Source: Polytrichum commune
Lineage: Eukaryota > Streptophyta > Polytrichopsida > Polytrichales > Polytrichaceae
DNA length: 64,000 nt
Reading direction: 5' to 3'
Assembly (NCBI GenBank): GCA_950295325.1
Contig: OX485803.1
Location: forward strand, 56,247,554-56,311,553
Positions within the stretch are counted from its first letter, which is position 1. The number at the start of each line of letters is the position of its first letter. Of this stretch, positions 15,041 through 41,692 are shown in pieces. The notes beneath the pieces were generated by a model. It ran no database searches. It was given only the letters and a program-made list of their open reading frames with translations, and was not told the DNA's origin. The translations under genes were made by a program, and so were the position numbers.

Positions 15041-15068
15041 AACACTATATTCGTTAAATTGAGACTTT
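15041..15068 (+). repeat. Left terminal inverted repeat of the inner element
   Basis: 28 bp, starts AACACTATATTCG and ends GAGACTTT; exact inverse of 41661-41688. Confidence 0.9.
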
Positions 15069-15202
15069 TTGGGCATTTTGAGATAATCACATAAATAAGA
15101 ACAAGGATAAATGGAACACATATTGGAGAAAGTTGTAAGATGCGAACACTTTGAAGCGGGTGTTTAGAACAAGAACCCCATTAATAACTCATATTTGGGA
15201 TT

Positions 15203-15440
15203 GTTTAGGGTGGGCAATCCAAACCTTAGGCCAAGTTGAAGGGGAAATCTTAAAACATTTATATTATCGCACAAAAACTTGTATGAATATGGTTTAGGTA
15301 GCGCAATCCAAACCATAGATCATATTGAAGGGGAAATATGTGAACCAATATAATATAACATACAAAATATTCCAAACTCATATTTGTGCTGGTTTAGGTA
15401 GGGCAATCCAAACCTTAGACCATATTGAAGGGGAAATCAT
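15203..15440. repeat. Subterminal direct repeats of the inner element
   Basis: Three copies of about 45 bp at roughly 15203, 15291 and 15390, each with GGTTTAGG(T/G)(A/T/G)G(C/G)GCAATCCAAACC-like core followed by CATATTGAAGGGGAAAT. The cores have short inverted ends GGTTT/AAACC. Subterminal repeats near a TIR are often transposase-binding sites; here that is inference. A single related copy is present in the MITE at 63703-63960. Confidence 0.65.
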
Positions 15441-15578
15441 GTGACACTTATATTATTGCAAAAAAAACATACAAATTATGGCATGTAAAATGCATAGCAT
15501 GCTAACACCACACATCCATTGGATAGTGCGACCCAAAATGTTCTTGCCTATGGCTCACAACCCTACGCCTACTATGGC

Positions 15579-16399
15579 CTATCTAGCCTCAGAGATTACC
15601 TCTTTTTCTTTTGCTTCATTTTCTTTTGCTTTTTTTTCTTTTGCCTCTTTTTCTTTTGCCTCTTTTTCTTTTGCTGCGGCTTCTTTTGCTCGCATTGCTT
15701 CAACATTCCTGAAAATCTCCGCCCCGCGACTATAGCCATTCTTGGGGTGACCGCCATCAATAACACATTTTGGATTCCGTCGGCCGCCCGAATTATACGA
15801 CGAAGAATTCGAATACGATGAAGTGGACTGTCTTGCATTTCTGGTCATGGAGTAGAAACGCTCCAACTCGACGGAAGCACTAGCCCGCATAGGTCTACGG
15901 GTGGGAGCAACCTGCAACGCGTGAATGCAAGAACACACGTGTTAGTTTAGGGAGGAAGACCCAAACGTGTCACACGTTCATTTTTTAAGTGCCGGATGAT
16001 TGTAATGCGCGGTTAACCATGTTTTGGGGGGGGGGGGGGGTTCACCTTGTCACCGGGGGCGTTCCCGTCGGAGTCGGCGAGGAGGGGCAATGCGTCCCGC
16101 AAAGGAATAGGAAGGGTGCCACTCTTCGTAGGCCAAGCGTCCATCCGCAGCCGCCGTTGAGGTGTACTACTGCCGCTGGGCCGAGACGGGGACGTCCGGA
16201 CGCATTTGCGATTTATGCCCTTGAGCGGCGACGGGGACGGAGATGGCCGGAAGATTTGCTTGGGTGGGGGGCTATAGACGACGCCGGCGTCAATAGGCTC
16301 CTTGGAGTAGTCGATGGTGGACGCGGCATCGTAGACGGTCTCGTAGAAGAAGCTCCCCAAGTTTGATTCGCTGACGATGTCAATCGAGGGCTCCAAACG
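15579..16399 (-). CDS. Coiled-coil cargo protein of unknown function (two exons seen)
   Basis: Exon 16399-16046 is bounded by an acceptor after a long pyrimidine tract (CCCATCAG) and a donor AAG/GTGAAC. Exon 15911-15579 follows the acceptor GTTGCAG and keeps phase, giving about 228 residues. The first exon encodes LGSFFYETV, DYSKEPIDAGVVYSPPPKQIF and a Pro/Ser-rich stretch. The second contains SSSYNSGGRRNPKCV and AEIFRNVEAMRAKEAAAKEKE, then a Lys/Glu/Ala coiled coil to the stop. No initiator ATG was found in this exon, so the start lies upstream. A decayed copy with the same exon order exists in the outer element, which shows the gene is a stable part of this family. Function not recognised; a DNA- or protein-binding accessory role is only a guess. 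Confidence 0.55.
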
Positions 16400-16518
16400 C
16401 TGATGGGAAAATTAAAACAAACAAAACCCAAGGGGAGGGGGGCAGGGGGGGAGCATGAGAAAATCGATATACAATTGAGGCATACTATATCACACACAAT
16501 GGCACACCATGTAGTATC

Positions 16519-17331
16519 TCAAATGAGTTTATTATATTTCGCGTGAGCGTACAACTCTCTGTACATATAGTCCTTCGGATCCATGTATCTTTCGCCTATC
16601 GGATTACAACTAAGGAACCGGGGCACGGGTAGTCCGCTCCCCACGAGCGTTTGAATGTACTTAAGTAGGTCTAACAAAAAGCGGTCTCGGACCTTCTCGA
16701 CCGTCCACGTGGGGCAAACTATGAAGTTCGAGGTCGGGTTCAAAATGTTCTTGGAAGCGCTGTCGTCCACCATCAACGTGTTGTCACGGGTGGGGCGAAC
16801 GTCGTAGGGACAACCGACCATGGTCGGACGCTGATCCCATACGACTGGCTTCAAGACCTTAAGAAATTGGTTTACGGCGGGGTTGTTGGGCTTCTTCACA
16901 ACCCTGCCCTCGGGGGTGTACAATGTTTTACAAGAATCCTGTCCTAGGACCAAGCACGGGGGTTGGAGTCCCTTGAAGATGAACTCCACGACGGCCTGGG
17001 TGTTCTCGGACTTCATGGAGCTCCACACGATCACCCACCATTTGGATAGGGCGACCTGCAGGAAGCGCCGAAGCCACGGGCGGAGGTACACTAGCTTGCT
17101 TTTGATGTACGCGGGGGGACCATCGTAGTTCCCGTCCTCGGGCTTGCAGAAAGGCACCGTGGGGACCTTGGGACAGTGCACGCACTGGACGAGGACCCCG
17201 TTGAGGTCTAGCACCAGGAACCGTGTCTTGGGCGGCGGAGACGGGGAGGGCAAAATCGGGGGGACCACCGCGCTGTCCTCCACGCTCCTCGGGGAGGACC
17301 GGTGGGGAGCCACGACGCTATGCTCCGATCC
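16519..17331 (-). CDS. FCP1/NIF-like phosphatase domain exon (HAD superfamily)
   Basis: The exon starts after a strong acceptor (TTCTCTCGCTCGTCGCCGCAG region) and ends at TGA 16519; the frame has no ATG in it, so it is not an independent gene start. It encodes a HAD-type FCP1 homology domain: FLVLDLNGVLVQ (motif 1), WWVIVWSSM (motif 2), a PNNPAVNQFLKVLKPVVWDQR region, and LMVDDSASKNILNPTSNFI (motifs 3/4). FCP1-type enzymes dephosphorylate phosphoserine proteins such as the RNA polymerase II tail. The catalytic DxDx(T/V) motif reads DLNGV: the second Asp, the general acid/base, is Asn. Activity is therefore doubtful. Its phase matches the exon ending at 17795, so it may be the C-terminal domain of the ParB/methyltransferase-like protein. 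Confidence 0.75.
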   Translation of the reverse strand, partial: GSEHSVVAPHRSSPRSVEDSAVVPPILPSPSPPPKTRFLVLDLNGVLVQCVHCPKVPTVPFCKPEDGNYDGPPAYIKSKLVYLRPWLRRFLQVALSKWWVIVWSSMKSENTQAVVEFIFKGLQPPCLVLGQDSCKTLYTPEGRVVKKPNNPAVNQFLKVLKPVVWDQRPTMVGCPYDVRPTRDNTLMVDDSASKNILNPTSNFIVCPTWTVEKVRDRFLLDLLKYIQTLVGSGLPVPRFLSCNPIGERYMDPKDYMYRELYAHAKYNKLI

Positions 17332-17751
17332 CTGCGGCGACGAGCGAGAGAAGGCGGCGAGGACTATGTTATGCTATGTTTAATTCAAGCAGAACGGAAA
17401 TTTTGTGCAAACACAAGAAGAATTGGACCATTGGTGGCAACAAAAACATACAAGGGGAACAACATACATTGGGACACGGATGCTAACATATGGGCGCCAA
17501 AAATAATAATTTTATTGTTACAAATCTCTATGTACAATTTGAGGGGGGGGGGGGCGCGGTGAACGAGGGCATTCACACTATCCTAATTGTACATCTACAA
17601 AATTGGTTGCGCGCCGCCAAGGTTGAGCGTAGTCGAGTGAGGTGAGACGAAGGGGATCGCGGGGGGAGCACGTTGTTGGGTGCGTCGGGGGGGTGTAGTT
17701 CCTCATAGCTAGGGGGGACAAGACCACGCCAACAAGACAATGACCAAGGAG

Positions 17752-17773
17752 GTTTGGGTCGGTCGACCCAAAC
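17752..17773. repeat. 22-bp palindrome in a predicted intron
   Basis: Arms GTTTGGGTC and GACCCAAAC around GGTC. Lies within the predicted intron 17332-17794. Confidence 0.9.
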
Positions 17774-17794
17774 TGGGAGGGCTCAGTGTGTTAC

Positions 17795-19279
17795 CTCGCC
17801 CTGGTCATGTCTCGACGATGTGGATGCCTCCACCGTCCCCGGTGCCCCACCTCTCTCGCCACCGCCTTCTCCGCCTACGTCAGGGACCTTGTCCTGCAAA
17901 GGTTGAGCATCAGGCCCTTGTCCTAAACCAATCTCCGCATATGCATCATGCATGGGTTCATCGATTTGGTTAGGATTAGAGGTATCACCAGGCCCTTGGA
18001 GGCCTTCAACATCTAACATGGTTGTGTCTCTTTGAGACACAAGTTCGTCAAGGGAGGACTGAGCTGCTCCGGGGTTTGGGTCGGGCGACCCAAACTGTCC
18101 TGCATCGGGGGAGGCGCCTTGGGGCACTACAGTCGAGGGTGGGTTTGGGTCGGTCGACCCAAACATCCTGGGATCGTCCGGCTGGTGAGGGGGCGCCATC
18201 ACTATGGGGGGTCGTAGTGGTGGAGGGCCCAATGGGGAGGAGGCTCCAGATACGCGCCAGATGTTGGGATCGTCCACTTGTTGGACCGGCGCGTACGGAA
18301 CATGGGGCGGCCGCATCATGTGCTGGAAGCTGAATGACCCTTGCGACACTGGGTGCTGAGGGATGCTCTGCGCTGGGAAACCGGGGGGCAAGTGCGGAAA
18401 CGAGCTGGATGGAGCCACCACCAATCCTTGCGCCCACATCCCTTGTATGACTTGCGATATCAAGTCGGCGCTGGATGGAGGTTGGGCCATCGCCCTTAGT
18501 CTTTCTTGTTCCAAGAGGAGAGCCCTCAGCTCTGCGACCTCGTTCCGCACGGAGGGTTCTTCCGCGGCAGCCCTCTGCAGGCGGACGCGCTGCTCCTCGT
18601 CTCTACGCATCTTCTCGTTGGCTTCCTCCACAGTGAGGACTTCGGGTTTCACCCTAACCATGCCTGCGAACGCTGTCGGGGAGGGGGGATCCGATCTGAG
18701 CCGTTTGGCGAGCTCAATGTCGTCGTCGTCCTCGCTGCTAATGGCAATGGTCTCCTCCAATGCGTAATCGCCATAGAGCTTCTTTCCCTTTAACTTCCTC
18801 CTCTCCCGGAACGTGGCAGTCGCGTCCCTGGAGTACATGTCCCTCGCATCGTCCACCGTAAGGACGGGCATCATCTTACTCTGCGGGGTTGCCACACGCA
18901 TAGCCTTCTTCCTCTGAGGGGCTTCAGATTCTTGCGTGAATCCGGTTGCCCCTTCCTCCACATCCCCCTCCTTTTCCTCCTCTCCGTGTTCTTCTTCTTC
19001 CTCCTCCTCTTCCACCTCTCCACCTCCTGTACGGGACGGATTGCCCGGATGCAACCCGACTAGAGGTTCGGGTAATTGGGTTGTTGCCCTCATCGCAATT
19101 TCTTCCGGGTTGATCCGCCTCGCCCTATCAAGAGGGTTCTCACCCCCCTCAACAACCTCGTCCACGTAGCTTCCCGGGATCCAATCGAGGATATCCATCT
19201 TCTTTGCCAGCGATTTCTACGTCCTGTAAAATTGCAGATCGCTATCCTCTATGTACGAGTAGATGTTCAACCCCAACAT
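17795..19279 (-). CDS. Cargo gene exon 3: end of methyltransferase motif plus acidic/proline-rich tail
   Basis: The exon opens at acceptor TTGTGTAG (19280) with MLGLNIYSYIED, the residues that follow motif I in DNA methyltransferases. After 20 codons comes an in-frame TAG (19217-19219). The same frame then runs for a further 474 codons to a GAG/GTAACA donor at 17795. The tail has an acidic run (EEEEEEEEHGEEEKEG), a Lys-rich stretch, a short coiled-coil region (RVRLQRAAAEEP...ELRALLLEQERLRAM) and a Pro/Gln-rich disordered part. Two palindromes lie in frame here and encode FGSTDPN and FGSPDPN. If the TAG is a true stop, the first ATG for a separate tail protein is at 19198. The frame continuity suggests the TAG is a recent nonsense change. 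Confidence 0.5.
18074..18164. repeat. Two palindromes inside coding sequence
   Basis: 18074-18095 (centre GGGC) and 18143-18164 (centre GGTC). On the minus strand they encode FGSPDPN and FGSTDPN in frame within the disordered tail. Confidence 0.85.
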
Positions 19280-19347
19280 CTACACAATCCAAGTTATATA
19301 GAAATTAGAATTTGCAAGACAAAAAACAAGACCAAAAACAATATCTA

Positions 19348-19405
19348 GTTTGGGTCGACCGACCCAAACCAAGAGAGAGACTAGTTTGGGTCGACCGACC
19401 CAAAC
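19348..19405. repeat. Two palindromes in intron 19280-19433
   Basis: 19348-19369 and 19384-19405, both with centre GACC, 36 bp apart, inside a 154-bp intron bounded by GTAAGT and GTGTAG. Confidence 0.9.
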
Positions 19406-19433
19406 TGCGCAAGAGCTAAAGAATGTAACTTAC

Positions 19434-20765
19434 CATGGCAGCATAGAGGGGTTTCGAGCCCCCGAACACGTTGAAGATACAGTCCCCTCTCCTAGTCAGC
19501 GTCCTCAGCATCCACATGTAGAATTCCATCCGCAGCTCATCTACAGGATAGTTTGCGTATTTGGCCTCGTCGTATAGGCATTTGCTGGAACCTAACCCAT
19601 CTGGAACTTGGAAGAGCTTGTCCATCCGGGATATAGGGTGGTTCAGCACCTTCAACAACTCCGCTTTGTACACGAAGTACAAACACAGGACGTTGACGAC
19701 CTTGGTCTTCTTGTCCTTCAACGACGTGTAGGCCCCCTCCGCCGGTGCGGCGATGTAGTGAGACTTGGAGACTGCATACTCCGGCTGCAATTTTCGGACA
19801 AGGTCGTACACCTGCTCCGCCCTCCTATCCTCGACTATCCATAGCCAGACATCAACCTCCCTGAACTTAGGACTCGCATAATCGACGAACTTAGATAGGA
19901 AGGGGTCGTAAAACAGTGTGCTCATCGTACCCTCAAATGAGCTTCCAGGAATGTTCCTGAAATCTATCATTCCGAATGGGAAACGCCCCCCTGCTTTCGT
20001 CCTTATCGCCATTCTGGCGTCTTGACCTGGCCAGCCCTGAATTTTCAAAGGCTCGAAGGTGACAAGGTTGAAGTAAGCGTCCCCTTCAAACCGGACAATC
20101 TTCTTCTCCTTGATGAAGTTCGAGAACGCACGCGCTGTGTGATCCGGAAGCGCCCGGTTCTTCCCACCCTTCACCATCTTGGCCCGCAAGAAGTCATCCC
20201 CCGCTTCCCTTATTAGAGCCGCCATGGAGGCACTGGTGAACTTATATTCAGCTTTGAATGCTCTCCAGTTAGCCTCATGAACCTCGCCGTCCACGACAAT
20301 ATTCCTCTCCGGCACCAATTTATGCAGCTCCTGCACTATAGTTGTCTTCTTTTTCCTATTCTCAGTCCATTCCTTCATGGTGTAGCATGAAGGGACGAAG
20401 GATTTGGGCTTTAAGAAGACAATCTTCGGGTGCACCCAGCACCTTTTCGCCGTGGGCGTGAAATGCAGGATGTGCGCCACCGCCTTCTCCATCTCCGTCT
20501 CGGAAAGGCCTTGAAGAGTTCTAAAGAACTCTCTCACGAGAGGCTTCATTTGTTTGAAGCGCGTGGTTTGGTTGAAGAAAATTCCTGTGTCCGGGTCGAT
20601 GAGCTCACCCGTCTCATGCTTCTCAAATACACTCTTCCACTTCATCCAAACGGAGTCGGATGCTATTATTAAATAAATCTCCCCTCTAAGCTCGTTGTAT
20701 TTCTTCTGTTTGTGACTAGCATTATCAATGGAGGAGAATTTATTTATCATTTGGTATTTGAAGTC
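19434..20765 (-). CDS. Cargo gene exon 2: DNA methyltransferase-like domain
   Basis: 444 codons between acceptor CACATGCAG (20766) and donor ATG/GTAAGT (19433), both in phase 0 with neighbours. The C-terminal part reads YANYPVDELRMEFYMWMLRTLTRRGDCIFNVFGGSKPLYAAM and, across the intron, MLGLNIYSYIED. This matches motif I of beta-class N6/N4 DNA methyltransferases (DPFxGSGTTLxAA..LGR..IGIE), where the SAM-binding FxGxG motif lies after the catalytic DPPY. Here GSGT is replaced by GSKP. The expected DPPY position, before VDVWLWIVEDRRAEQVYDLVRKL, has no clear DPPY, so catalysis is doubtful. The N-terminal half (KWKSVFEKHETGE, WVHPKIVFLKPKSFVPSCY) is unrecognised. A DNA-binding or degenerate methylase role is plausible; a search against ParB-linked methylases would test it. 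Confidence 0.5.
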
Positions 20766-20854
20766 CTGCATGTGATCAAAACAATCATTTGAATGCATGT
20801 TAGATATGAACATGTGATTTCCAAAACATATCATGACCAATGTCTGCACCAAGA

Positions 20855-21106
20855 GTTTGGGTCGATCGACCCAAACTAAAAAAAACATGACTGCAACAAG
20901 AGTTTGGATCGATCGACCCAAACTAAAAAAACATGACTGCAACAAGAGTTTGGGTCGATCGACCCAAACTAAAAAAACATGACTACAACAAGACTTTGGG
21001 TCGAGCGACCCAAACTAAAAAACATGACTGCAACAAGACTTTGGGTCGAGCGACCCAAAGTACACAAATAAAGCTGCAAAAAGAGTTTGGGTCGATCGAC
21101 CCAAAC
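20855..21106. repeat. Array of six palindromes filling intron 20766-21115
   Basis: Starts at 20855, 20902, 20948, 20994, 21039 and 21085, spaced 45-47 bp. Centres are GATC (first three and last) and GAGC (fourth and fifth). Between them is A-rich spacer with ACATGACTGCAACAAGA. The intron is bounded by GAG/GTGAGT and ATGCAG. Confidence 0.95.
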
Positions 21107-21115
21107 AATACTCAC

Positions 21116-22441
21116 CTCCCACTTGGGATTCTTGTCCTTTGCATTCTCCCTCTGTTTGGGAGGCCTACCATAGAACTCCCACACCTCCCGCGAGGCCATG
21201 ATATTCCTTATCCAGGAAGCTTGGTAGGCCCTTTTCTTATTCCCCATGTTAAAGTAACGGGAGATGTCGCTCAGTCGGGTCTCATCGTCAGACCACACCA
21301 CCAGTGTCTTCCACACCTTCAACTTCTCCTTCTGATGGTTGGGATCGTCCCACTCAGTCATCAGTTGGATTTTCTTGGAAGCCTCAACGCTGTGTTGGCC
21401 GTCTATGAGCCAAAAATCGCCTTTCTGAATTGTCGCCCACATTTCAGGGGTAGGCATTTTCTTCAGTCCCTGGGGCATCACTACAATGGTTTGCCTGTCG
21501 TCTTTGAATTGTTCGCTAACGATCTGCGCGATTATCCAATCGACGTAGACGTCTTCTTTTGCCCGGACACATTTTTCTGGTGGCGCGAGATGACACTGAC
21601 TGATGTTCACGTCGAATTTGAAATCCCTGCCCATGAAAAAGCAATGGGAGCACTTGGTCGTGAAATTGTTCACGATTTTTTGGATCTCCCCTGCATCCAC
21701 TTCCTGCCCTGGCTTCGGCATGCGCAATTCTAGAGAGACTGGCTCGTCAGTCATCACAGATGACTCTCTCGCCCTCTTGGAGGGAGTTGTTTGGCGGCTG
21801 CCAGAAGGCGTAGGAGTCTGGCTATCCGCCGGTGTCTCTGATGGAGTGGTTCGTCTTGAGCTAGCCGGGACTGGTTGCGGCATCCTCACTGATTGAGGCC
21901 TTGACGACCCTGCACCTTCCTCAGTGGGTACCTTCCGCCTGACGGCTTGCTGAGACTTCGTTTTGCTCTGCAGGGCTTTGTTGAGCACGCTGATTGCATG
22001 CTTTAGTTTCGTAAACCGGCTCGAGACCTTTGTGTTCGATGTACTGGCATCGATGAAAATTGTCTCGGGTTTGATTACATCAAGTTCGACACATGACTCC
22101 CTTGCATATGTAGCGTCAAAGGGTTCGACGAACTGGTGCAGAAACATATGAGCATTCTGCACAGCGTTGTTCTCAAGGATGACGTCTGCGTAGTCTCCAA
22201 AAGACTGGACCGACGCCACCTCCCATCCCGTAAGAGTCGCCCAGGTATGTTTTTCCACGGTCCCTACTTTGACAACGAATATCAGTTTGTAAATGGAGGT
22301 TTTTACTACTTGAATTGACCAAGCGAGGACAAGCCCGTCCTTAGGGACATATGAGTCATCATGAGGTGTTTCGTGCTCCTGCCATAACACGTCTGGCGCA
22401 AGCATGAACCACCTTTCTCCTGGTCTTTTCTTTGGGGCCAT
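21116..22441 (-). CDS. Cargo gene exon 1: ParB-like domain
   Basis: 442 codons from the ATG at 22441, directly after acceptor-like TTTCTTTGCAG, to a perfect GAG/GTGAGT donor. Residues 1-150 (MAPKKRPGERW...) are unrecognised; 160-245 are Ser/Thr/Pro-rich and probably disordered. From about residue 265 the sequence follows a ParB/Srx-fold pattern: VNISQCHLAPPEKCVR, then an alpha/beta region, FWLIDGQHSVEAS (the DGxHR-like box, with Ser for Arg), KLKVWKTLVVWSDDETRLSDISRYFN. ParB-family domains bind or hydrolyse CTP/DNA in partition proteins, and occur next to DNA methylases in phages and integrative elements. The following exon is methyltransferase-like, which supports the assignment. The Arg of the box is missing, so nuclease or CTPase activity cannot be assumed. 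Expressed product not shown. Confidence 0.5.
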
Positions 22442-22984
22442 CTGCAAAGAAAGAAGCAAGGATGTTAGTTTCGGTCGTTCGACCCAAACTTCTTCACAAT
22501 AGATTAGATGTCACGTGATGGAAGGGAAATGTAATGCATCAACGCATTTATTTTTGGATTGTGTCTTGTTATTTTAGAACTTCATTTATATGTTTATATG
22601 GTATTTCGTTATCTTGGGTGGATTTGCGTTTTATATTGTCATCAAGGATTTCTTGAAAAATTTATACTGTAGAGGTTGCGTTTGGGTCGACCGACCCAAA
22701 CAGCAGGATGTGCTTTGGGTCGATCGACCCAAACTATAGGCTGTGTTTAGGGTTTAGGGACCCAAAGCACATCGTGTTGTTTGGATCGATCGACCCAAAG
22801 CACATCCTGCTGTTTGGGTCGATCGACCCAAACTATAGGCTGTGTTTGGGTCGTCTCCCCAAACTGTTCTATTTTAATATAGTTTTTTAAACTTGGCATG
22901 TAGCATATACAATGCTTATGCATTGTGTATGCTACAACACTGTCAATTAAGAAACACATATTGGAACCCCTTGAAAAACAATAC
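22442..22984 (-). other. Predicted 5' leader intron with seven palindromes
   Basis: RC of 22984 reads AAG/GTATTG (donor) and the 3' end is TTTCTTTGCAG just before the ATG. Palindromes or degenerate copies start at 22468 (GTTTCGGTC arm), 22680, 22713, 22745 (very degenerate), 22779, 22812 and 22843. The leader exon would lie upstream of 22985. Confidence 0.5.
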
Positions 22985-25660: not shown

Positions 25661-25730
25661 TAGAAGTTTTTGTTTGATCCATATATTAATTTGAGACTAG
25701 AGAAAGTCTGAATTTAACGAATATAGTGTT
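25661..25730. repeat. Internal relic of a right element terminus
   Basis: About 60 bp nearly identical to the right end of the inner element (41620-41688): GTTTGATCCATATATTAATTT, GAGACTAGAGAAAGTCT and the terminal repeat ending ATATAGTGTT. One base differs in the TIR. No matching left terminus was found nearby. It is followed by ACAT. Confidence 0.75.
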
Positions 25731-31400: not shown

Positions 31401-34400
31401 CACCCTCTTCCACGTCATCTACCCAAGGTGTTAACCCACCGCTAACCCACTCTTCCTCGGTGAGCACCTCACATGGCTCCAACAATGAGCCCTCTCCTAA
31501 ACTAACACTAGGAAATTCACTCCCTAAGCCTACTTGGTGAAATGCAACCATTACATCAACCTCGGACTCGGGGTACTCCCTTAGCCATTGGGCATAATCC
31601 CCATTATCCCCATAATTGTAAAAATTAGGACCTAGACTTCCCGAGCCCGAATCTATAACAACCCTTTGACCTTCGGGATGGACGACTCCCACCAATGCCT
31701 TGCCAATCTCATTCTCGTTTAAGTCATCAATTTCCTTCTCCAATGGCAAATACATCTCCTTCTTCATCCATCCTTCTAATGAACCAATGGACACTATGAC
31801 CCTATTACCCTCCGGACCATAAGTGATGGATGGTTTAGGTCCACCCCAATTGACCATAGCATTCGCCATCCGCAACCAAGGCCTACCTAGCAAAATGGGG
31901 AAGGTGTCATTGTTGGAGTGCATTTTAATGACATGGAAGGTGACCAAGTACTCCTCACCTCCCGTAGTCATTCTACAATCCTTGATCATCCCCAAAGGCG
32001 TAGTCGAACTTTGATTTGCCATATTTATGACCAAAGGTGAAGGCCCCGTGAGTCCAAGTCCCAATTTTTTCATAGTATCCTCCGGTAGTATATTTAGACT
32101 ACTCCCTCCGTCGACTAGCACATTAGGAACCACCTTATCTACTATAACAACTTCTATTTCTATAGCTTTCACGTCTCTTCCACCTTGTGATTGGATCCTA
32201 GCGGCTATTTTAGCTTTCACCTTCCTCATCCTCTTGTGTACCGGCATTCCCTCCTTTAATGTTTTCCTTGCCGTGGGTGAAATTTCCAATAGTTGGCCGA
32301 AAGTAATATCCGCCTTGAGTGTACTAAGGTCCGCCCACAAGTCGTACCCGGTAGATCTTTCCACCTTAGAATTACCCACTACGTCGAATTCGTCTACGAG
32401 AACCCCCGGTCCTTCCCATTCACCCACATCGCTATTATCCAAGTCATGTACCGCATTAGTCCTCTCCCTATCTTGTAAAATTATATTTTCCCTCTCCACA
32501 TCCTTAGTAGCTCTTCTAGCTACCCTATCCAACTCGGAGAGATTAATCTCTTCATCTGAAGAGTAATTTCCTTGCTCTCCTATTCCTACCTCCAACGGGG
32601 CATCCCCTCTCCTAGCCCTAGTAGTTACCGCTAGTGCAGGTGCTTCTTCAACCACACCCTTACCCTTCACTAACTCATATGTAATAGCATTGGTGTGAGG
32701 AGGCCATTGACTTTGCTCCTCTCCAATTCTCGTTGGGAGAGGAAGCATGTCATCACATGTGGCTTCCAACACTCCATCCATGAACCTAACATCTTGGGAG
32801 TTAGATGGTCCCGGATCCGTTGGAGGCGCTTGTCTCCCGTTACTACCATTAGGTGGAACTCCTTGTCTATTTTGTATTGGAATGTAACCGGTTGTAGTTT
32901 GCAAGCCCGCCGGTGGATGAAAAGTTTGCCTAGCATTACTATGGTCATAGTATAAGTTAGGTGGCCTAAGTTCATTGGCCGGTACTCCTTGTGGCCTAGC
33001 ACCTCGCATATTATCCCTTGCTTGTTGTTGTGGATTAGCCACCGGGTAAGGGACATTAATTATTTTGTCCGGTTGGCGACACGTATCCGAGGGATGACTT
33101 CCTCCACAATTGCTACAATTAAACTCTTGACCTTCGGACCAACATTGTCCTTGAGCGTGCCACCTTCCACAAAAGGGATGAAATTCCTTCTTCTCTAAAT
33201 TTTGGCCACCTTGCCCTCTAGGTTGTGGTCCTCTATTGCTTCCATTTCCATAGTGAGGTGGCGCTTGACCTCGTTGATTTTGTTGAGGTGGGTTACCGTT
33301 TCCTCTTTGGTCACGGTTTTGTCCACTTCTACAAAATTGACGCGTGTGGCCCGGTTGGCCACATTGGACACACCATAATCCGGAAGAATGCCTACCCGAC
33401 TCAACCGGGGGTGGAGGCCCCGGTTGTTGACTCCGGATCATTAATGACATTTGATCCGTGAGGCTTTGTATTTGTTTTATCATAGCCTCTTGGAATCCTA
33501 GTTGGCTAGCACCTAGTCTTCTCTCAACCTCCTCCAAGTGTGGATCCGTTCTAGGGGCCGGTAGTGCCAAAAGAGGTGCCGGTTCCCTAACCGCTAAAGG
33601 TCGGGGACCGGTGTCCACAATGGCATATGGAATTTGGTTCTCATACTTAGCGGGTTCTACCGCTACCACCCTAGGGCGTATGGGGATGAATTGTGGGATT
33701 AATTCATCCTCCCTTCTCCATAGCCTTTCGTGATCTTTATCCAAGTTTTCAATATCTCTAGCCGCACGCTTGGCATCCGCCAAGGTCAAGGGATTCCTTT
33801 CTAGAATACCCCTAATAGTTCCGGACTTAAAAAACCCTTGAATGAAAAATTGCTTTAGCGTGTCGTCGTTGAGCATGGTACCCACGAATCTAGTGCACAC
33901 TAAATCAAACCTCCTAATGTAAGCCGAAATTTCTTCCTCCCTTCCTTGCTTCAATGACGACAATGCCCTTAATGCGGTACTTTGACCCACTTCCGGCCTA
34001 AATTCGTTAAGAAACTCCCTTTGTAATTGTTCCCATCCCCTAAAATGTCCCTCGGCATGATCCCGATACCATTCATAGGCTTCCCCCTCTAGAGTGGTAG
34101 GAAACCACACTAACCAATAACCCGGGTCGGTTATGAGGGAGCTAGCCAACCGTTCGATATACCGTTCCATGTGCCGAGAGGGGTCCTCATCCTTGGTCCC
34201 ATAAAATTTAGGGAGATGAGATGGCATATCCATCGCCGCTAAATTTTGTGGAACCACAATTGGTAGGCCTCTTGGCCTAACCAATGGGTCTATTGGAGGT
34301 ATAGGAGGTATGGGCGGAATTGGGGGTATGGGTGGTGGATCCATCCCCCGTTCCTCGGCCATGGTGACCGGTGAACTATTCAACAATCCCCTATCAACTT

Positions 34401-34665
34401 CTACCGGGAATTCTTTTCTAAGTGTGTAATTTTCCGAAGAAGTTTCACCACTCAATTTGGAGGGAGTGATCTCCTCTTCAAGTTGAGCTTCAAGTTCTAA
34501 GGTGTCTAGAATTGACCTAGTCCTAGGTTCGACGTTCAAACAACTCTCTATTCTAACATTATCTTGTTCTAATCTATCACTGATTTTAGAGGACCGCCTC
34601 TTTCGAGTAGATTTCTCTAGTCCTACTATCAAACTTGGTTTTTGTGAGCGAGTCCTACCTTGCAT
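28426..34665 (-). CDS. gag-pol: Gag-Pol polyprotein, Ty3/gypsy (non-chromovirus type)
   Basis: 2,079 codons without a stop. Order: Gag (about 145-330, LPKFYGTKDEDPSRHMERYI), CCHC knuckles at about 432-445 (CVQCGQPGHTRQFC) and 517-529 (CSNCGGSHPSDTC), aspartic protease with VDGGSSLNIL at about 851 (DGG where DSG/DTG is usual), reverse transcriptase (about 1230-1420; catalytic FVDD at 1374-1377), RNase H (YCDAS at 1520), integrase with HHCC zinc site (H1730, H1737, C1768, C1771) and catalytic D1800, D1861, E1897. The C-terminus ends in a GPYLVYEVFPNNSIQLETLNGE fold without an evident chromodomain, as in Tat/Athila-type lineages. PR-RT-RH-INT order defines Ty3/gypsy. The uninterrupted frame and near-identical LTRs suggest the copy may still be competent. 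Confidence 0.97.
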   Translation of the reverse strand: MQGRTRSQKPSLIVGLEKSTRKRRSSKISDRLEQDNVRIESCLNVEPRTRSILDTLELEAQLEEEITPSKLSGETSSENYTLRKEFPVEVDRGLLNSSPVTMAEERGMDPPPIPPIPPIPPIPPIDPLVRPRGLPIVVPQNLAAMDMPSHLPKFYGTKDEDPSRHMERYIERLASSLITDPGYWLVWFPTTLEGEAYEWYRDHAEGHFRGWEQLQREFLNEFRPEVGQSTALRALSSLKQGREEEISAYIRRFDLVCTRFVGTMLNDDTLKQFFIQGFFKSGTIRGILERNPLTLADAKRAARDIENLDKDHERLWRREDELIPQFIPIRPRVVAVEPAKYENQIPYAIVDTGPRPLAVREPAPLLALPAPRTDPHLEEVERRLGASQLGFQEAMIKQIQSLTDQMSLMIRSQQPGPPPPVESGRHSSGLWCVQCGQPGHTRQFCRSGQNRDQRGNGNPPQQNQRGQAPPHYGNGSNRGPQPRGQGGQNLEKKEFHPFCGRWHAQGQCWSEGQEFNCSNCGGSHPSDTCRQPDKIINVPYPVANPQQQARDNMRGARPQGVPANELRPPNLYYDHSNARQTFHPPAGLQTTTGYIPIQNRQGVPPNGSNGRQAPPTDPGPSNSQDVRFMDGVLEATCDDMLPLPTRIGEEQSQWPPHTNAITYELVKGKGVVEEAPALAVTTRARRGDAPLEVGIGEQGNYSSDEEINLSELDRVARRATKDVERENIILQDRERTNAVHDLDNSDVGEWEGPGVLVDEFDVVGNSKVERSTGYDLWADLSTLKADITFGQLLEISPTARKTLKEGMPVHKRMRKVKAKIAARIQSQGGRDVKAIEIEVVIVDKVVPNVLVDGGSSLNILPEDTMKKLGLGLTGPSPLVINMANQSSTTPLGMIKDCRMTTGGEEYLVTFHVIKMHSNNDTFPILLGRPWLRMANAMVNWGGPKPSITYGPEGNRVIVSIGSLEGWMKKEMYLPLEKEIDDLNENEIGKALVGVVHPEGQRVVIDSGSGSLGPNFYNYGDNGDYAQWLREYPESEVDVMVAFHQVGLGSEFPSVSLGEGSLLEPCEVLTEEEWVSGGLTPWVDDVEEGEVSLIHVDGTQEEDVIIESSKLEEPLHFKTTSTGIVVGQDVKDYPNVPSDWYRNKDEQAHVSEADWRYVDVKLKNGKTRQMKMGSKLGEKEVREYSNLVDEFSDTFAWSYDELKGIPREMVEHRIPLIPGARPIRQKERRMNPQLQLLVKAELERLLKAGFIKPVEITDWVSPMVLVKKKNGKLRVCVDYRKLNSCTQKDHFPLPFITLLLEEVGGHSRYTFMDGYAGYNQISIALQDIHKTAFTTPWGTFVWVVMPFGLCNAPATFQRLVMYIFTDLLFKSMTVFVDDFSTQSNVDDHLHCVREALVRCRKMRLALNPDKTFLGVNKGVLLGYVVSEKGREPDPDKIAAISDLATPTNSKGISKLLGHVGWYRKLIPNFSKIAVPITHLLKKDVKFEWTDACQKAFEELRDRLSTYPVLIPPNWGKPFHVYCDASNVAIGSALCQATGEKEKDQPIAYASKQLTPAERNYSTTERECLAMVFSVKKFRHYLMCNPVVFFVDHMAIKYLINKAELSGRLARWVLLLEEFDYTVEYKPGRMHLQADHLSRLSEEIGKNPVNDMLVDDSLFVVTSTPEWYAGIVEFLTTHKLPKEWTKEERRKVRVNSRQFVVVGHRLFRRGSDGILRRCVSKTEVEAILIACHDSTCGGHFSGQLTGQKILRAGYFWPTLFKDAHNYVRKCDACQRYARDDLRMEMPLHVSLPLIPFEKWGIDYMGEVHPQSSKGMKYIVVATEYLTKWAEAKAVKTDTAEHAATFMYENIISRFGVPKILVSDRGTHFLNDLIREMTEKFKIDHRKTTPYHPQTNGQTERVNGILVSILRKTVIDSKRDWDTKLTAALWAYRTTYKVTTRATPFSLVYGLEATLPIEYEVESLRVAVSTRLTESQSLRNRLTDLEALDEGRRMAAQHIEAIQRRRKITFDKRHKRRALTPGMMVMIQDARKLEFPAKFNAVWLGPYLVYEVFPNNSIQLETLNGELFPTRTSGSRCKEYRA

Positions 34666-35574
34666 TCCATAAGAATCGATCGACCCTCACTTGACCACAC
34701 ATAATCCTAGCAATTCCCCTCTTAATATTTTCACTTGTCTTGGTGTGGTTATAATTTTTTTAGGAGGTGAGGAAAAGAACCTGCAAGCCCACTTAGGTGA
34801 AAGAATCCCAATAGGGGATAGGCATGTTCATGTTAATTTTTTGGTTAAGTCGGAGCATCACCTCCGCACCTTCCCGCAAATTAACACTCACCACAATACC
34901 GATTGTGAGGGGGTGACCTTCCGAGTAGATTATGTTAAAAGTCGAGGCTTCACCCTTCAACTTCTCACACCATCCACAATTCGGGAATTACCCTTTACAA
35001 CGGATAACAACAATCACGAGTACAAAAGGCATTCCTTAATTAGTTAATGAGTTCACTTTGAAGAAATAAACATACCTTGAGCAATCGCATCCCCCTGTGA
35101 GTTAGCACTCCCCTCAATCGTGACTCAATGTAACAACACCATAAACTTTGTGAAATATTAATTTAATCTAGAGCATGAAATGACAACTCCCAAAACTTTG
35201 AGACTCACCCCGAGGTGAGTGTCAAAGTTCAATGTCCTAAGGTGAATTTACCCTCTAATGTTTTAATGAGCTACTCGGTTATAGGTTCCTTTTAAGTTCT
35301 TAGCAAATCCCCAAAAAGGTTGAGGACGTACCTTCGCCGCGCTCCTTCCTCAAAAATGAATTTGCGTAATTGACAATGCAATTCATTCCAAGGAATAGTT
35401 GAAATACAATGAATTCAAATGTAACCCAAAGAGAGAATACTTACCGAATTTCGGGTGCTCCTTCCCTTCTCTCAAGTTTGTGTCTCCAATTTTTCCTAGT
35501 TGCCTCCAAGTCTCCTAGTCGCCTCCAAGTCTTGTAACTACCTTCTGCTTCGCTCCCGGCGGACGCACCAATTA
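34666..35574 (-). other. Retrotransposon leader between 5' LTR and gag
   Basis: 909 bp of untranslated leader on the coding strand. A 118-codon antisense frame (34691-35047, plus strand) has no recognised motif and is probably chance. Confidence 0.6.
35553..35570 (-). promoter_or_regulatory. Primer-binding site
   Basis: Four bases inside the 5' LTR the coding strand reads TGGTGCGTCCGCCGGGAG, the complement of a tRNA 3' end with CCA. The tRNA species is not identified. Confidence 0.65.
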
Positions 35575-37274
35575 TGTGAGGCCAAACCCCCCACCCTTAA
35601 GCGTCCGTAGTCCGAGTAGTGGGTTTGGGCTCACATTCCTCCGCGGTATTGGATTTGGACTTGGATGAGTCCATAGTGCAAGGTTCACCCTTCAAGTGGT
35701 CTTGGATTTAACTAGCTCCTTCATAAACCCAGCTCCTTCATAAACCCAGCTTCTTAGCTTCTAACTAAACAAACCCAGCTCCTTCATAAATCCAGCTCCT
35801 TCATGAACCCAGCTCCTTAGCTTCTAACTAAACAAACTCAGGTCCTTCATAAACCCAGCTCTTTACTTTCTAACTAAACAAACCCAGCTCCTTCATAAAC
35901 CCAGCTCTTTACTTTCTAACTAAACAAACCCAGCTCCTTCATAAACCCAGCTCCTTAGCTTCTAACTAAACAAACCCAGGTCCTTCATAAACCCAGCTCT
36001 TTACTTTCTAACTAAACAAACCCAGCTCCTTCATAAACCCAGCTCCTTCATGAACCCACAACTTTGTAGTTGTAATCCCCAACTACCTCACTAATTATTC
36101 AAGCCCTTAACTAATCTTCCTACCTAATTTCCCTAATTCTACTAACAACCCCTTTCTAATCACACAATTCTTCTCTAATCCTAAAATCCTAAAATCCTAG
36201 AGAGGAGAGGGGGAGAGAGAATTTCCTAACTTCACTAAGACTAACTAATCCACACAAGTATATTTTTGCACTCATCACAACATCAAGTGCTCAACTCTTA
36301 AACATGGAACTTGCAACCACGTGTATTCAAAACATGAACTTTAAGTACCACAAATTGGAATCATGAATTAACTTTAAAATCCTTCACGTCAACACTAATT
36401 CTACCAAGAGGTCAAGCCCTCTTCAAGGCTAACAAGCCTTGGCTCTCAAACTAAAAACTAAGCACACACATGTGCTCCAATATGGCTTCCCACACCCACA
36501 CTTATAACTCGTGGGGTGCCTTGGAGCACAAAGGAAAGAGAGGATGAGTGAGGGAAGAATGAGGGATTATATAGTAAGCTTGAGGGGGTGAGCACCCTCA
36601 AGGCTCACGATAAGCCCTTGAGATTTCCTCCTACTTAGTAGGCGCCAATCCTATCTTCTAAGCCTTCCTCCCTCAAATGATCAACAAGGATCATAATTCG
36701 AACATTTAACTAGCCTTGGCTTTCTACCTACCACACTTTACCAAACTTGGGATGCTTCAACCCAAACTTAGCCTCCTTCGCTTTCCGCCGCCATAACTTT
36801 CTCCCCTTACTTTCCCAAATCGTCGCTCACCACTTAATTCAAACCACGATGCTTAACTCGTGATTTGATTGGTGCTTTGAGAATTTGCTTATCCTCCACC
36901 TTGCATTCTTCCTTGGGCCTTCCCCATTAAGTGGCCATGATGAGGTGGTCCACTTGTGCGCTCCATGTGATCCTCCATTCATCCCAATTCGAATGCACTT
37001 GCCTCTTGAGTCACTTTGGTTGTCTCCATCCATTTGTACTAGCCTACTCACTAACTATTCAATCCAAGTTCTCCTTACCTATCCTCATTCACTCAAATCC
37101 TTCCGAAGGTAAAAACACAATAACAACTCACATCCTAGCCTCTTACAACATGGTACTTCTAAGACTAACATTTCACTCTTTTTATATTTTTGTGAAGTAA
37201 CATGCTACTTCAAAGTGCATCAACTAACGTTTCAAGGGTCTAAGACTAAATGTGGGCACCCTTTTGGGCTCACA
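35575..37274 (-). repeat. 5' LTR
   Basis: 1,700 bp, TGTGAG...CTCACA. Contains a possible TATA box on the coding strand (CTATATAA, 36567-36574). Confidence 0.95.
36567..36574 (-). promoter_or_regulatory. Putative LTR TATA box
   Basis: CTATATAA on the minus strand about 700 bp into the 5' LTR, the best TATA match in the LTR; the same site exists in the 3' LTR at 27657-27664. Confidence 0.4.
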
Positions 37275-37888
37275 GGTCTACTCTGACCCTTGTGAGGTTT
37301 GGGTCGGTCGATCCAAACCCCTTCACTAGTGTTGGGGGGGGGTCTACTCTGACCCTTGTGAGGTTTGGGTCGGTCGACCCAAACTTTTTCGCACATCGTG
37401 AACGAATTGTTAATGGCCCTTACCCAAGGTACTCAGAAGGTTTGGACGGACAGAGTAGGAACCTTATCCCATCATATGTAATGTTTGGGTCGAGCGACCC
37501 AAACCTCATCCCAGTGTGGGTGGATTTACACTGTGAAAGTTTGGGTCGACCGACCCAAACCCTTTCCCGGTGTGGGTGGACTTACCCTGTGAAAGTTTGG
37601 GTCGACCGACCCAAACCCCTTCTGAGTGTGGGTGGGTTTACCCTGTGAAAGTTTGGGTCGGTCGGCCCAAACCCCTTCCCCAGTTTCGGCGGTTGTAGTT
37701 GACCATGACAAGGATTGGGTCGGTCGACCCAAAGTTTTCCCCACAGTGTGATGGAATTCTAAATGGCCTTCAACCCATCATTGTACAAGGTTTGAGTCGG
37801 TCGACCGGAACCCGACCCTATCCCACGGGCAAGGTGGGGATGGCCCTCAATCCCTGGTGCCACAGGGTTTAGGTCGGCCGACCCAAAC
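37275..37888. repeat. Palindrome minisatellite, right part
   Basis: Palindromes start at 37297, 37363, 37483, 37539, 37595, 37651, 37713, 37790 and 37867. The first two continue the 65-bp array left of the retrotransposon. The 37539-37651 members sit in 56-bp units with GTGGGTGG(A/G)(T/C)TTA(C/A)(C/A)CTGTGAAA. Centres vary (GGTC, GAGC, GACC, GGCC) while arms stay conserved; the last ones are degenerate. The array lies directly upstream of the transposase. Confidence 0.9.
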
Positions 37889-38067
37889 TCCCACCCAAAA
37901 TATTTTGTGGAACATTTTGTGGACTGGCGCACAGTATTGGGAGCTCACATTGCATTTGTGTTGCAAATGTCTTGATCCTCAGTGTCCCCATTCATCGTGA
38001 TGTTTTGCATTTTTCAATATTTGATTCTTTTGGACCCTTACGTTGTGTCCATGTTTGTTGAGGTTTC

Positions 38068-38990
38068 ATGTGCATGTGTGTAGGCGTAATGGAGGGAGTT
38101 GGTGGAAGAGGGGATTCCTTCTCTGAAGACATGGGCAGCACCCAATCTCTGTCTGGGGATGAGCTAGACATTGTCGGGGAGGATAGTTTTGATGACAGTG
38201 CAGATGAAGGTCATTTGGGGAGTCCTTCGCCATCTGACCCTTTTTGCCCCATTGTGGAATGTGCGGGGCTTTCACGAGCTTCATGGGTGAATTTGGATGT
38301 GGTACTTGTTAATGACAGTGGAGTTGCTGTGGCGGAGGGTATTTGTCGTAACACACATCCACAAGATTGCATTGATGAACACCCCCTTGGCACCGAGGAC
38401 GTTGGAGTTGTTATATTAGAATCACTCGTACATTCGGAAGTCAATCCAACTCATAGGTTCTCGTTGCGAAGGTGGCCGTTGAGGAATGTGACAATTGAGG
38501 GGGTTAGCTTGCGCGACCATGAGCGACGACACGTCCAAATCCAACAGGAGCTCCAAGCAAACATTCGGCCACGCAAAGGCCTTCGGAAGTACGAAACATT
38601 GACACGTCCTACTCCGTCTGCAAATAAGTGTAAACGTCAAAGGTTGCTCTGTGAGGAGTCTATTAGAGAAGTTGCTACGAAGGATTGTTGTGTACATCGT
38701 TGTTGCCAATTGTTCCCAAGAGATAAATTGAAGGCCATCCGTGAAGAAATGCGGCTTGGAGATTTCCGTCTAAGATCCACCAAAAAACTTGATGTCCATA
38801 GGGCGATACATGTGAACGGAGCGGGTCGCAAGGTCATCACCCTTGAGAGCATAGACGTGTGTTGTACAGCATGGTACACCATTCATGGTGTACCGAAAGC
38901 GGAATTTTATAGACAAGCCGCGTATGCCAATGAAGGCCGCCGTGCCCGTCACCATGGGAACATGGGCTTAAAGAAACCAAGAGAAGCAAC
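38068..38990 (+). CDS. Inner transposase, N-terminal part (DUF7869-associated)
   Basis: The frame follows an acceptor-like TGTGTGTAG; the likely start is ATG 38089 (MEGVGGRGD) or 38068. It has an acidic N-terminus, then HPTHRFSLRRWPLRN-type sequence, a basic region, a Cys-rich stretch (DCCVHRCCQLFPRDKL, a possible zinc site) and VITLESIDVCCTAWYTIHGVPKAEFYRQA. The layout matches N-terminal regions of large DUF7869 proteins in plants and animals. At about 38990 a one-base deletion relative to the outer copy puts the rest of the protein in another frame (this frame runs on to 39138 without similarity). The protein would bind element ends if functional. The decayed homologue at 11490-12870 confirms it as part of the element. 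Confidence 0.7.
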
Positions 38991-41156
38991 GAGAAAGCAA
39001 CAGCCACTTTGGCAACCATCATTGTCCCCCTTGCCGATGCAATGCCGCACAAAACACGCACACTCGCAACCGGTGAAAAGGTTGTGGAGAAGGTTCTTCC
39101 TACAGGCACGAAATGGAAAGACATATTGTTGGACGTAAACGCAGTTGGCGAGAAGGCCGGGTTGGATCCAATTTCGTTGTCGAAATTGAGTGCTATCAAA
39201 AAATCTCACTTTAGCGAATACATCACAAAAAGACGAGGCGACAAATTTGCCCGTTGTTCCAAATGCGAGAAGTTGAAACGCCTTCGAGATGCACACACGA
39301 TGGGAACAGAGTCCTATGCCGCACATCAAATGAACTATTTCAAGCATGTGAACATGCAAGAGGCACACCGTAATGATTACTACACAAATAGAGCTTTGTC
39401 CATCTCCAGGCCTTTGGAAGTCCTTACAATCATCCATGACAAGATGGACCATGCCAAAACAGCCTCACCATGTTTTGCAAATCGAATAAAAGCCACGGAC
39501 GGCTTTTTTAAGCTTCCTGTTTCGGTTACAGGTGATTTTGATAACAATTGCATTGCATTACCTAAACACAAATTTGTGCGTTTAGGTTTGTACTTGGGGC
39601 CATACATGTACACCATGTGAATGTTTTGGTGTTATAGTTGAATATTAAACCATTGGGTTGCCTTTGCAGGAATGATTACACATGGGCATGGTGATGTCAA
39701 ATATGCTCATTATGCTCTTGATTTGTATCCGGCGGATTCAAACCACACGATAGGGTCATTTGCAAAGCTTTTACGTGATTTGGAGAAACCGCCGTCCTAT
39801 TCATCAAGATTGTTATTTGAAAACTCGGGATCAACACCTCTATATGAAGCGGTCTTGGATGGAAAAGATGTATGCGTGCACTCATTGCCGGAGCCACCAA
39901 GTGAAGATGTGATTGCCAAGAAGTTGCCCCCAACTCTGCGTGTCCAATTGGACAATTGTGCGAAGGACAATAAAAGTAGATATGTTTTTGCATATTGGTC
40001 GTTGTTGGTTGCGAAAGGCATTTTCAAGGAGGTTTTTGTGTCCTTTCTATTGGTAGGCCATACGCACGATGATATTGATGCGTCCTTTGGGTGGTGGAGC
40101 ATGAAGTTGCGCGAGGAGGATTTTCCAACAATCCCATTGTTGATGAAGTCGTACATGGATTTGGAGAACATTCCCGTCATCCCCCATATGATCGAGGAGG
40201 TTCCAGACTTCAAGGCATTTATAGAACCGTATATTCGAAGCGGAGCTCACCGATTGATCGGGCATACGAAGGCACAACAATTTCGGTTCTACGTGCGTGA
40301 CGATGGTGTCCCCGCCATGCAATACAAGTTGTTGTGCACATCACAAGACTGGAGCCCGCCGGAGGGTCTCCTTGTATGGCGTGTTGATGGGGAAGGAAGG
40401 ACGATGTTGCATGACGGAGAGCCTAAGCCTTGCAAACCAATACCCATGAAGAATTTGGAGGACATTTGTAAAGGCATATCAGGCTTCATACAATATTGGG
40501 AGAGTTTGAGGGTAGCGGATGTTGGTGGATCGTGTTGGCTTCGTTACGGAAGTTGGATACAATATTGGACACGTGTTCGTGGCGCTTTGGCAAACCTTCA
40601 TCAAGATACACCCCTTACTTTAAGGCATGGGTTTTGGCCACAAACACGTGTCAGTGTACAAGCTTCGGAGGCTAGTCTTTTGGGAAATGGAGAGGTTCGA
40701 GAGGAGTTTGATGTGGACGACCATTACGTGGGGCCTGCTAGTAGTCGTCCGCCACCATCTTTCCGCATTGCAGTGGATTGTCATGAAGGTTATATGCTCA
40801 TTTTGCGTCCTAGAGATGAGACATATGCAAAGCCAGTGTGGGTGGCAAGAGCTTTGTCCAAACCAAATTTTGTAACTTCCAGCCCTCATTTTCGACAAAT
40901 ACAAGTAGAGTACTACCGACCGACAGCACGGAATGAAGATGTTGTTCGGCATTATACAGGCTGGGATACAAACCCTAACTTTCGGTGGAAGGTGGATTCT
41001 GAGCATGGTCCATCTTGGGTAGATACAGATTCCATATTCATAGCATGGAAACCACGGAAAAATCATAGTGGATCAGTGTCCATCCCTCAAAAGTACATAA
41101 CTTTTGCAAAAGACAACCTTGCTCGGATCGCAGAAGAAGCAACCCACGTTGAATGA
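38991..41156 (+). CDS. Inner transposase, C-terminal part with DDE/RNase H-like (DUF7869-like) domain
   Basis: Frame from 38991 through VTG at 39531, intron 39532-39669 (G/GTGATT...TTTGCAG, phase 1), then 39670-41156 to TGA. It encodes KFARCSKCEKLKRLRD (zinc-like CxxC), GMITHGHGDVKYAHYALDLYP, RVQLDNCAKDNKSRYVFAY and FVSFLLVGHTHDDIDASFG. The QxDNC...N...VGHTHxDID pattern is the hallmark of DUF7869 proteins, whose fold is thought to be RNase H/DDE transposase-like. The outer element has the same gene as a pseudogene (13608-15040 plus 41693-42190). The 1-bp frameshift at 38990 separates this part from its N-terminus, so this copy may be inactive unless the shift is bypassed. Catalytic acidic residues are proposed, not proven. 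Confidence 0.75.
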
Positions 41157-41660
41157 GAAGTTGGTAGGATTGTGTTAGCATGATTATAGTGTAAACTGTA
41201 ATTCGACGAATATATATTACTCATATGTATGCTCCTCAAACTTGGGGCAAAGTTTGGGTAGAACTTGCGAATGCTATATTGTTTGGGGTTGGATGAATAT
41301 CCATTTACTATATTTCAATACAGTTGTGAAGTTCATTTTTTTTATTAAGTTTGGGACTAAATTTTCCATTGAAGAAAAATGCATTTATTGCATGCACTTT
41401 GTATGTTGCAATGTCTATATTTTATTGACCATGCTAATAATAGAAATCATTTTATATGTTTCTTGGGTGAAACTAGTTTGGAGTGCTCTACCCAAAGTGT
41501 TTTTGTAGATGAAGTTGGTGTTGAGTGCTCTACCACATGTGCTTATGTCCACACATAATAGATTTGGGATATTAGAACATATAATATATTTGAGATCGTT
41601 CTCAATATAGTTTCGGAACACGGAATGTTGTTTGATCCATATATTAATTTGAGACTAGAG
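41157..41660. other. Right subterminal region of the inner element
   Basis: AT-rich, no gene. GAGTGCTCTACC occurs twice (about 41480 and 41525) followed by CAAAGTG/ACATGTG. It is homologous to the outer element's right end (42885-43260). Confidence 0.55.
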
Positions 41661-41688
41661 AAAGTCTCAATTTAACGAATATAGTGTT
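41661..41688 (-). repeat. Right terminal inverted repeat of the inner element
   Basis: Exact inverse of 15041-15068; followed by ATGT (41689-41692). Confidence 0.9.
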
Positions 41689-41692
41689 ATGT

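Follow-up and report, generated by a model that had tools for sequence, protein, structure and literature searches.

The window analysed here, a stretch of 64,000 nucleotides of the moss Polytrichum commune (contig OX485803.1 of assembly GCA_950295325.1, forward-strand positions 56,247,554 to 56,311,553), carries a DNA transposon bounded by terminal inverted repeats (TIRs), which is confirmed as a real, high-copy element of 16 kb. It would be a cut-and-paste element, most likely of the Sola-1 kind, mobilized by a transposase with the domain DUF7869, while a ParB-like protein of its own would bind palindromic sites spread over the element and counter host methylation; this joint reading is given about an even chance of being correct. 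Within the window, the element is enlarged by a nested retrotransposon that has long terminal repeats (LTRs) and a polyprotein open reading frame (ORF). The delimiting features are the following.

15041–41688, plus strand: transposon including the nested retrotransposon (16.0-kb element and 10.6-kb insertion), defined by perfect TIRs, a 4-bp duplication, and the same ends genome-wide
15041–15068, plus strand: left TIR, 28 bp
41661–41688, minus strand: right TIR, 28 bp
15037–15040: target-site duplication ATGT, left copy
41689–41692: target-site duplication ATGT, right copy
26665–37274, minus strand: nested LTR retrotransposon, with LTRs at 26665–28364 and 35575–37274, duplication GGTCT, and polyprotein ORF at 28426–34686
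25670–25731: internal fossil right end, present in seven of ten fetched copies

The TIRs, AACACTATATTCGTTAAATTGAGACTTT on the left and its complement on the right, are identical over all 28 bp, or 29 bp when one shared flank base is included, and ATGT stands directly outside either end, so that the perfect repeats and the perfect duplication claimed in the original prediction are both borne out. The same applies to the exact reconstitution of the outer gene that the insertion has interrupted. In the alignment with its inner homologue, positions 14862–15033 correspond to 40473–40644 and positions 41709–42162 to 40668–41125; once one ATGT is removed, the 23 outer bases in between (15034–15040 and 41693–41708) lie opposite 23 inner bases (40645–40667).

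The exact 28-mer end occurs 672 times in the 408-Mb host genome (330 and 342 times by strand), while the reversed control does not occur at all; the ends are therefore not a product of chance. The 90 ends listed on the sequence C1 form 34 convergent neighbour pairs less than 60 kb apart, 21 of which measure 14–19 kb, 12 more, and one less; divergent neighbouring ends within 60 kb were seen among them in none of 35 cases. Ten copies (c1–c10) were fetched at 20 kb each, with both ends visible in seven and the left end not reached in c3, c7, and c9. Together with the window copy, this makes eight two-ended copies, five of which possess a perfect 4-bp duplication that is different each time (ATGT, TGTT, AAAT, TCAT, and ACAT). 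A precisely delimited TIR transposon, with dispersed copies having the same ends and 4-bp duplications, had been proposed and is found.

The size of 26.6 kb originally assigned to the element is correct as to its ends, but 10,610 of the 26,648 bp belong to the retrotransposon. Copies c1, c4, c5, c6, and c10, which are devoid of it, are 15.9–16.2 kb long and 98% identical to the window element over the whole 16 kb; from their lengths it follows that the element consists of 16 kb plus a young insertion, and from their identity that the cargo, as had been claimed, is part of it. The retrotransposon has the ORF order gag-protease-reverse transcriptase-RNase H-integrase, its 1700-bp LTRs differ by one mismatch, and its insertion cut one palindrome array into two; it is young and later than the transposon. 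The notion of a single composite cargo transposon of 26.6 kb with no nesting could draw on the TIR ends, which enclose the entire stretch; it is already refuted by the five copies without the insertion, along with the near-identical LTRs, the GGTCT duplication, and the full retrotransposon ORF, and has practically no probability left. A shorter element, 15041–25731, ending at the fossil right end, was rejected as well. Its flanks, ATGT and ACAT, do not form a direct repeat, and the presence of the fossil inside seven of the ten copies shows that the family has inherited it.

The genes of the 16-kb element are arranged divergently.

38062–41156, plus strand: DUF7869 transposase gene, its two exons separated by an intron at around 39532–39669 (GT-AG, read from the sequence)
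17783–22441, minus strand: ParB-like/methyltransferase-like/coiled-coil accessory gene with exons at about 21116–22441, 19434–20765, and 17783–19279, delineated by splice signals, spliced models, hhalign, and the ratio of nonsynonymous to synonymous substitutions (dN/dS)
16519–17373, minus strand: ORF of a NIF/FCP-type (HAD) phosphatase (PF03031, E-value 1.2e-13)

The predicted DUF7869 protein is recovered in the plus-strand gene, which matches PF25273 with an E-value of 4.9e-41, the best stretch being 39915–40340. In the transposase ORFs, DUF7869 is the only Pfam domain above cut-off, with no TNP2-type transposase among the matches, and no KDZ transposase domain was matched in Pfam. A PDB search by sequence gave no match up to an E-value of 1, the best profile match was a ribosomal protein (E-value 0.65), and a literature search on DUF7869 found no report. 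An RNase H-like fold of the protein, as expected of a DDE/D transposase, is neither supported nor contradicted by AlphaFold2 models built from five and six sequences, which are of low confidence (predicted local distance difference test scores of 36.6 and 40.9). The frame of exon 1 is broken in the window copy and open in c4. Among 2,673 candidates from a genome search with the transposase, 60 were scored; they comprise the window's own gene and 59 matches of 95–97% identity, spread over seven large sequences. A 1040-amino-acid frame is found in 47 of the 60, and 41 contain, over the part searched, no stop except the two intronic ones.

Relatives were also looked for in other sequence collections. 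Viral contigs yielded no relative in three protein scans, no match to the ParB exon, and, in a motif scan, four stretches with no relative by tblastn. From genome contigs, the motif scan picked out 26 stretches, three of which encode DUF7869 relatives (L014, L027, and L030); all three are located in bacterial metagenome-assembled genomes and probably represent eukaryotic contamination. L014, which is contig CADCWO010000071.1 of a cyanobacterial assembly, encodes a full-length eukaryote-type DUF7869 protein, the gene of which is without the intron. The homologues, full-length in L014 and partial in L027 and L030, have in common the motif HDKMD (SDGM in two relatives) as well as QxDN/QxDG and GHTHxDID, which together might constitute a DDD triad. 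The DUF7869 protein would be the transposase of the element, acting on the AACACTATATTCG ends with 4-bp staggered insertion; the ends and the duplications are observed, and catalysis by this protein is what we infer.

The minus strand encodes the accessory protein and the NIF-type phosphatase. Since splice signals join them, the separate ORFs of the accessory protein are exons of one gene, the spliced models of which give products of 1384 (c6), 958 (c4), 1347 (c5), and 1313 (c8) amino acids. The intact c6 product starts with the ParB-like part, followed by the methyltransferase-like part and an acidic coiled-coil tail; in the window copy, a premature stop truncates the protein at 906 amino acids. 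Compared with the original prediction, the cargo is arranged differently, with the ParB-like, methyltransferase-like, and coiled-coil parts in a single gene and the phosphatase, which also matches TIGR02251 under its cut-off, in a separate one. ParB kinship of the accessory protein is weak; hhalign gives a score of 24.9 at FWLIDGQHSVEAS, and none of 60 column shuffles exceeded 18.9. Weaker still is the assignment as a methyltransferase, with the activity unproven, the best alignment to N6/N4 enzymes landing on an FGGS motif with a score within the shuffle range. Phrogs, NCBIfam, and PDB contained no useful match for the ParB and methyltransferase exons; the best one was phrog_9311 (unknown function; E-value 0.0014), covering the first stretch of the second ORF.

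Selection on the cargo was assessed by comparing the diverged copies c2 and c8 each with c4. The dN/dS values are 0.05 for the ParB exon (c8; synonymous sites of c2 are saturated), 0.06 (c2) and 0.10 (c8) for the methyltransferase exon, 0.09 (c2, residues 1–260 of 434) and 0.15 (c8) for the coiled coil, and 0.22 (c2) and 0.11 (c8) for the NIF phosphatase. By these ratios, the accessory gene and the phosphatase are under purifying selection between subfamilies and have been kept functional in the long term. Both c2 and c8 combine a nearly identical transposase with an older, diverged cargo, a mixture which suggests recombination between subfamilies.

The palindromic sites, which the original prediction had missed, have the form TTTGGGTCG-NN-CGACCCAAA and a length of 20 bp. 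Their groups in the window, counted with at most one mismatch, are as follows.

17753–18163: three sites, one just past the accessory stop and two in the coiled-coil exon
19349–19404: two sites in intron 2 of the accessory gene
20856–21105: six sites in a 46-bp tandem array, intron 1 of the accessory gene
22469–22832: five sites upstream of the ParB coding start, with a 33-bp array at 22673–22864
26487–26635: three sites in a 64-65-bp array, with the retrotransposon between it and the following array
37298–37887: eight sites upstream of the transposase, including a 56-bp array

All 27 sites of the 64-kb window lie inside the element. The two introns and the stretch immediately before the accessory coding start hold 13 of them, the last exon and the stretch directly behind it three, and the interval separating the divergent genes 11; many belong to tandem arrays, which share the same core despite their different unit lengths (33, 46, 56, and 64–65 bp). 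The fetched copies contain 23–36 sites each, and five more are found just beyond the end of c2. Genome-wide, the exact palindrome occurs 9,731 times, whereas the reversed control and the version with a 3-nt spacer give zero. The two exonic palindromes at 18075–18163 encode FGSxDPNP peptides in the coiled-coil part, and at C1:616089–617357, an array of 17 palindromes with a spacing of about 78 bp lies inside an 18.1-kb TIR pair.

Conservation of the sites was followed from the 14 left-half sites of c4. Compared with c2, the arms match at 160 of 162 bases and the flanks at 60% (nine sites compared); compared with c8, all 14 sites give 98.0% for the arms and 76.5% for the flanks. The 2-nt spacer is changed in nine of the ten ungapped left-half sites of c2. 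This conservation gives the palindromes the character of sites, presumably of a rigid symmetric protein dimer that would bind to them. An origin as selfish repeats, whether tandem or hairpin, that slippage and conversion would have multiplied without any protein partner is regarded as very unlikely. Such an origin would agree with the location of most strict sites in tandem arrays and with their varying number among copies, but the arms stay identical where the spacers vary between subfamilies, single sites, including two in a coding exon, are retained at matching places, and the 3-nt version is missing from the genome.

A diverged version of the sites is seen in L014, a distant element that aligns as two pieces of 52% and 46% identity. 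It contains six sites of the form TTTAGCTCG-N3-CGAGCTAAA with at most three mismatches of 18, all outside the ORF; a stricter count of recurring palindromes gives three, against at most one in 100 shuffles. Subterminal transposase-binding repeats are common in DNA transposons, and the transposase itself might use the palindromes as accessory repeats, the ParB/methyltransferase protein having another role. The 11 sites ahead of the transposase gene, together with the flanking of the transposase ORF by the L014 sites, would be in line with this, whereas the strict sites begin 2.7 kb inside the left end and stop 3.8 kb short of the right end, and 13 of the 27 belong to the introns or the immediate upstream region of the accessory gene; binding by the transposase is regarded as rather unlikely. 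We also consider it unlikely that a host transcription factor binds the palindromes as regulatory sites driving the element genes. Their position ahead of the two divergent transcription units and within introns would suit such a factor, but the window has no strict site outside the element, and the different spacing in L014, which is probably from another organism, fits better to an element-encoded partner.

The binder considered most likely is the ParB-like protein that the element itself encodes. The older relative into which the element has inserted comprises the following parts.

7281–43290, plus strand: older relative hosting the insertion, with degraded ends and no clear duplication
8587–9555: NIF remnant of this relative
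12287–15033 and 41709–42162: its DUF7869 remnants
11072–11475: its decayed palindromes, with 2–4 mismatches

In this relic, the NIF and DUF7869 genes are decaying, and 17 of the 119 CpGs of the inner element are kept, 70 being now TG or CA; outside CpG, C-to-T changes amount to 95 of 436. The CpG decay suggests that the family is methylated by the host. On this ground, and by the resemblance of the site layout to the VANC21 targets of Arabidopsis discussed below, the accessory protein would most likely bind the sites and protect or mark the element. In the proposed course of events, some 25 palindromic sites, lying ahead of the two transcription units and within the introns of the accessory gene, would be occupied by a symmetric protein dimer, most likely the ParB-like protein, and the bound protein would mark or open the element DNA against host cytosine methylation in a VANC-like manner; anti-silencing is thereby assumed by analogy. 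A more far-reaching version is put forward only tentatively, its probability being judged short of even. It takes the whole as a eukaryotic self-recognition system, in which the ParB-like/methyltransferase-like protein would read the palindromes on its own transposon, chemically mark or clear the DNA, and so counter host methylation, with sites and protein co-diverging between hosts (2-nt spacing here, 3-nt in L014), like a bacterial ParB-parS or restriction-modification pair taken over by a parasite of plant genomes.

Several observations weigh against the preferred explanation. The hhalign probability for ParB kinship is 7% with no Pfam match, and a wrong-family decoy, the ParB exon set against methyltransferases, scored 21.4, near the 24.9 of the ParB alignment. 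The methyltransferase-like part stays with 19.7 below the shuffle maximum of 25.9, again with no Pfam match, and, read by eye, has DPF where a DPPY motif is expected. Among the recent 98% copies, which have few changes, dN/dS is scattered and reaches 1.14 (ParB, c9) and 0.62–0.82 (coiled coil), and several copies contain one or two stops. Four of the 14 left-half c4 sites are gapped or poorly aligned in c2 and one more had too little flank, and three of the eight two-ended copies (c1, c2, and c10) are without a matching duplication. That the ParB-like part is the binder, and not the transposase or a host factor, is likewise only what we infer.

The surroundings contain further members of the family and other repeats.

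47809–48059: short non-autonomous relative resembling a miniature inverted-repeat transposable element (MITE), duplication AACT

A second short relative, of unclear duplication, lies at about 63704. Copy c8 (C7:2277574–2297573; oriented coordinates 33–1431 and 19110–19833) has landed, like the window copy, in a DUF7869 gene that belongs to a more diverged relative, so that insertion into such a gene is found in two of 11 copies, with only about 1–3 kb of flank seen in most. The left part of the outer element holds an imperfect, MITE-like hairpin of 330 bp (8024–8355). Inverted copies (95–97%) of a sequence of about 500 bp at 42315–42876 and 46384–46887, one within the right part of the outer element, probably represent another short repeat family. 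Outside the element, a tandem repeat with a 76-bp unit in 3.6 copies is found at 51396–51671. A short TTTAGGG repeat was also seen.

Among known systems, EnSpm/CACTA elements make a 3-bp duplication and have a TNP2-type transposase, and Sola1 elements make a 4-bp duplication. The present element resembles the former in having CACTA near its ends (2 bp inside) and in its size, as EnSpm/CACTA elements can be large. Membership was rejected on the 4-bp duplication of five copies, with none clear in three of the eight, and on Pfam, where DUF7869 is the only domain above cut-off and a TNP2-type match is missing. The 4-bp duplication in five of the eight two-ended copies agrees with Sola, and the element is most likely of the Sola-1 kind, next to which it is placed by description and not by sequence. 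In the portions available of the respective reports, a 4-bp target duplication is given for Sola2 (PMC3627910) and the moss Physcomitrella has an entry for Sola1 (PMC9033089). Sola1-1_Ec32 of Ectocarpus is described in the accessible part of PMC12477816 as a 21.5-kb element with a 1104-amino-acid ParB-like and methyltransferase protein encoded on the strand opposite to the transposase, and its authors suggest that proteins of this type may attach to the transposon encoding them and modify it. Both are giant elements with a ParB-like and DNA methyltransferase gene opposite the transposase; target palindromes, the coiled-coil extension, and the NIF phosphatase distinguish the Polytrichum element from Sola1-1_Ec32 as described in that part (PMC12477816). 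The original prediction of an undescribed architecture is thus only partly upheld, this gene arrangement being already reported there and the full set not. Among the matches listed in literature searches, those on ParB and on moss cargo genes showed Ectocarpus as the sole eukaryotic-transposon case noticed, and those on Polytrichum and Sola nothing relevant.

VANDAL elements belong to the MULE superfamily; neither a MULE transposase nor a VANC protein was matched by Pfam here, and the likeness is one of layout only. As excerpted from PMC5735166, the VANC21 targets of Arabidopsis are a short motif, enriched in its own family, in changing tandem repeats in accessory-gene introns and upstream of VANA21. 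Common to both systems would be an element-encoded protein with site arrays in accessory introns and upstream of the transposase; the VANC motif, though, has nine bases in the same orientation, where a 20-bp palindrome is found here, the accessory protein is another one, and the anti-silencing shown for VANC is here only presumed (PMC5735166, same excerpt). Fungal TET/JBP transposons, too, are DNA transposons with a DNA-modification-type enzyme as cargo, but it is a dioxygenase, combined with other transposases, and palindromic arrays are not described in the section of PMC12730594 at hand.

Summarizing, the ParB-methyltransferase transposon architecture is already known from Ectocarpus, and the Polytrichum element is a variant of it with candidate target sites. 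These sites offer a concrete candidate target for ParB-methyltransferase proteins, short, exactly spaced, and countable genome-wide, where the available text of PMC12477816 names none, and in combination with an intact accessory-gene copy they make the idea of self-binding testable. If true, this would be a second case of sequence-specific anti-silencing beside VANC, and one that is unrelated to VANC.

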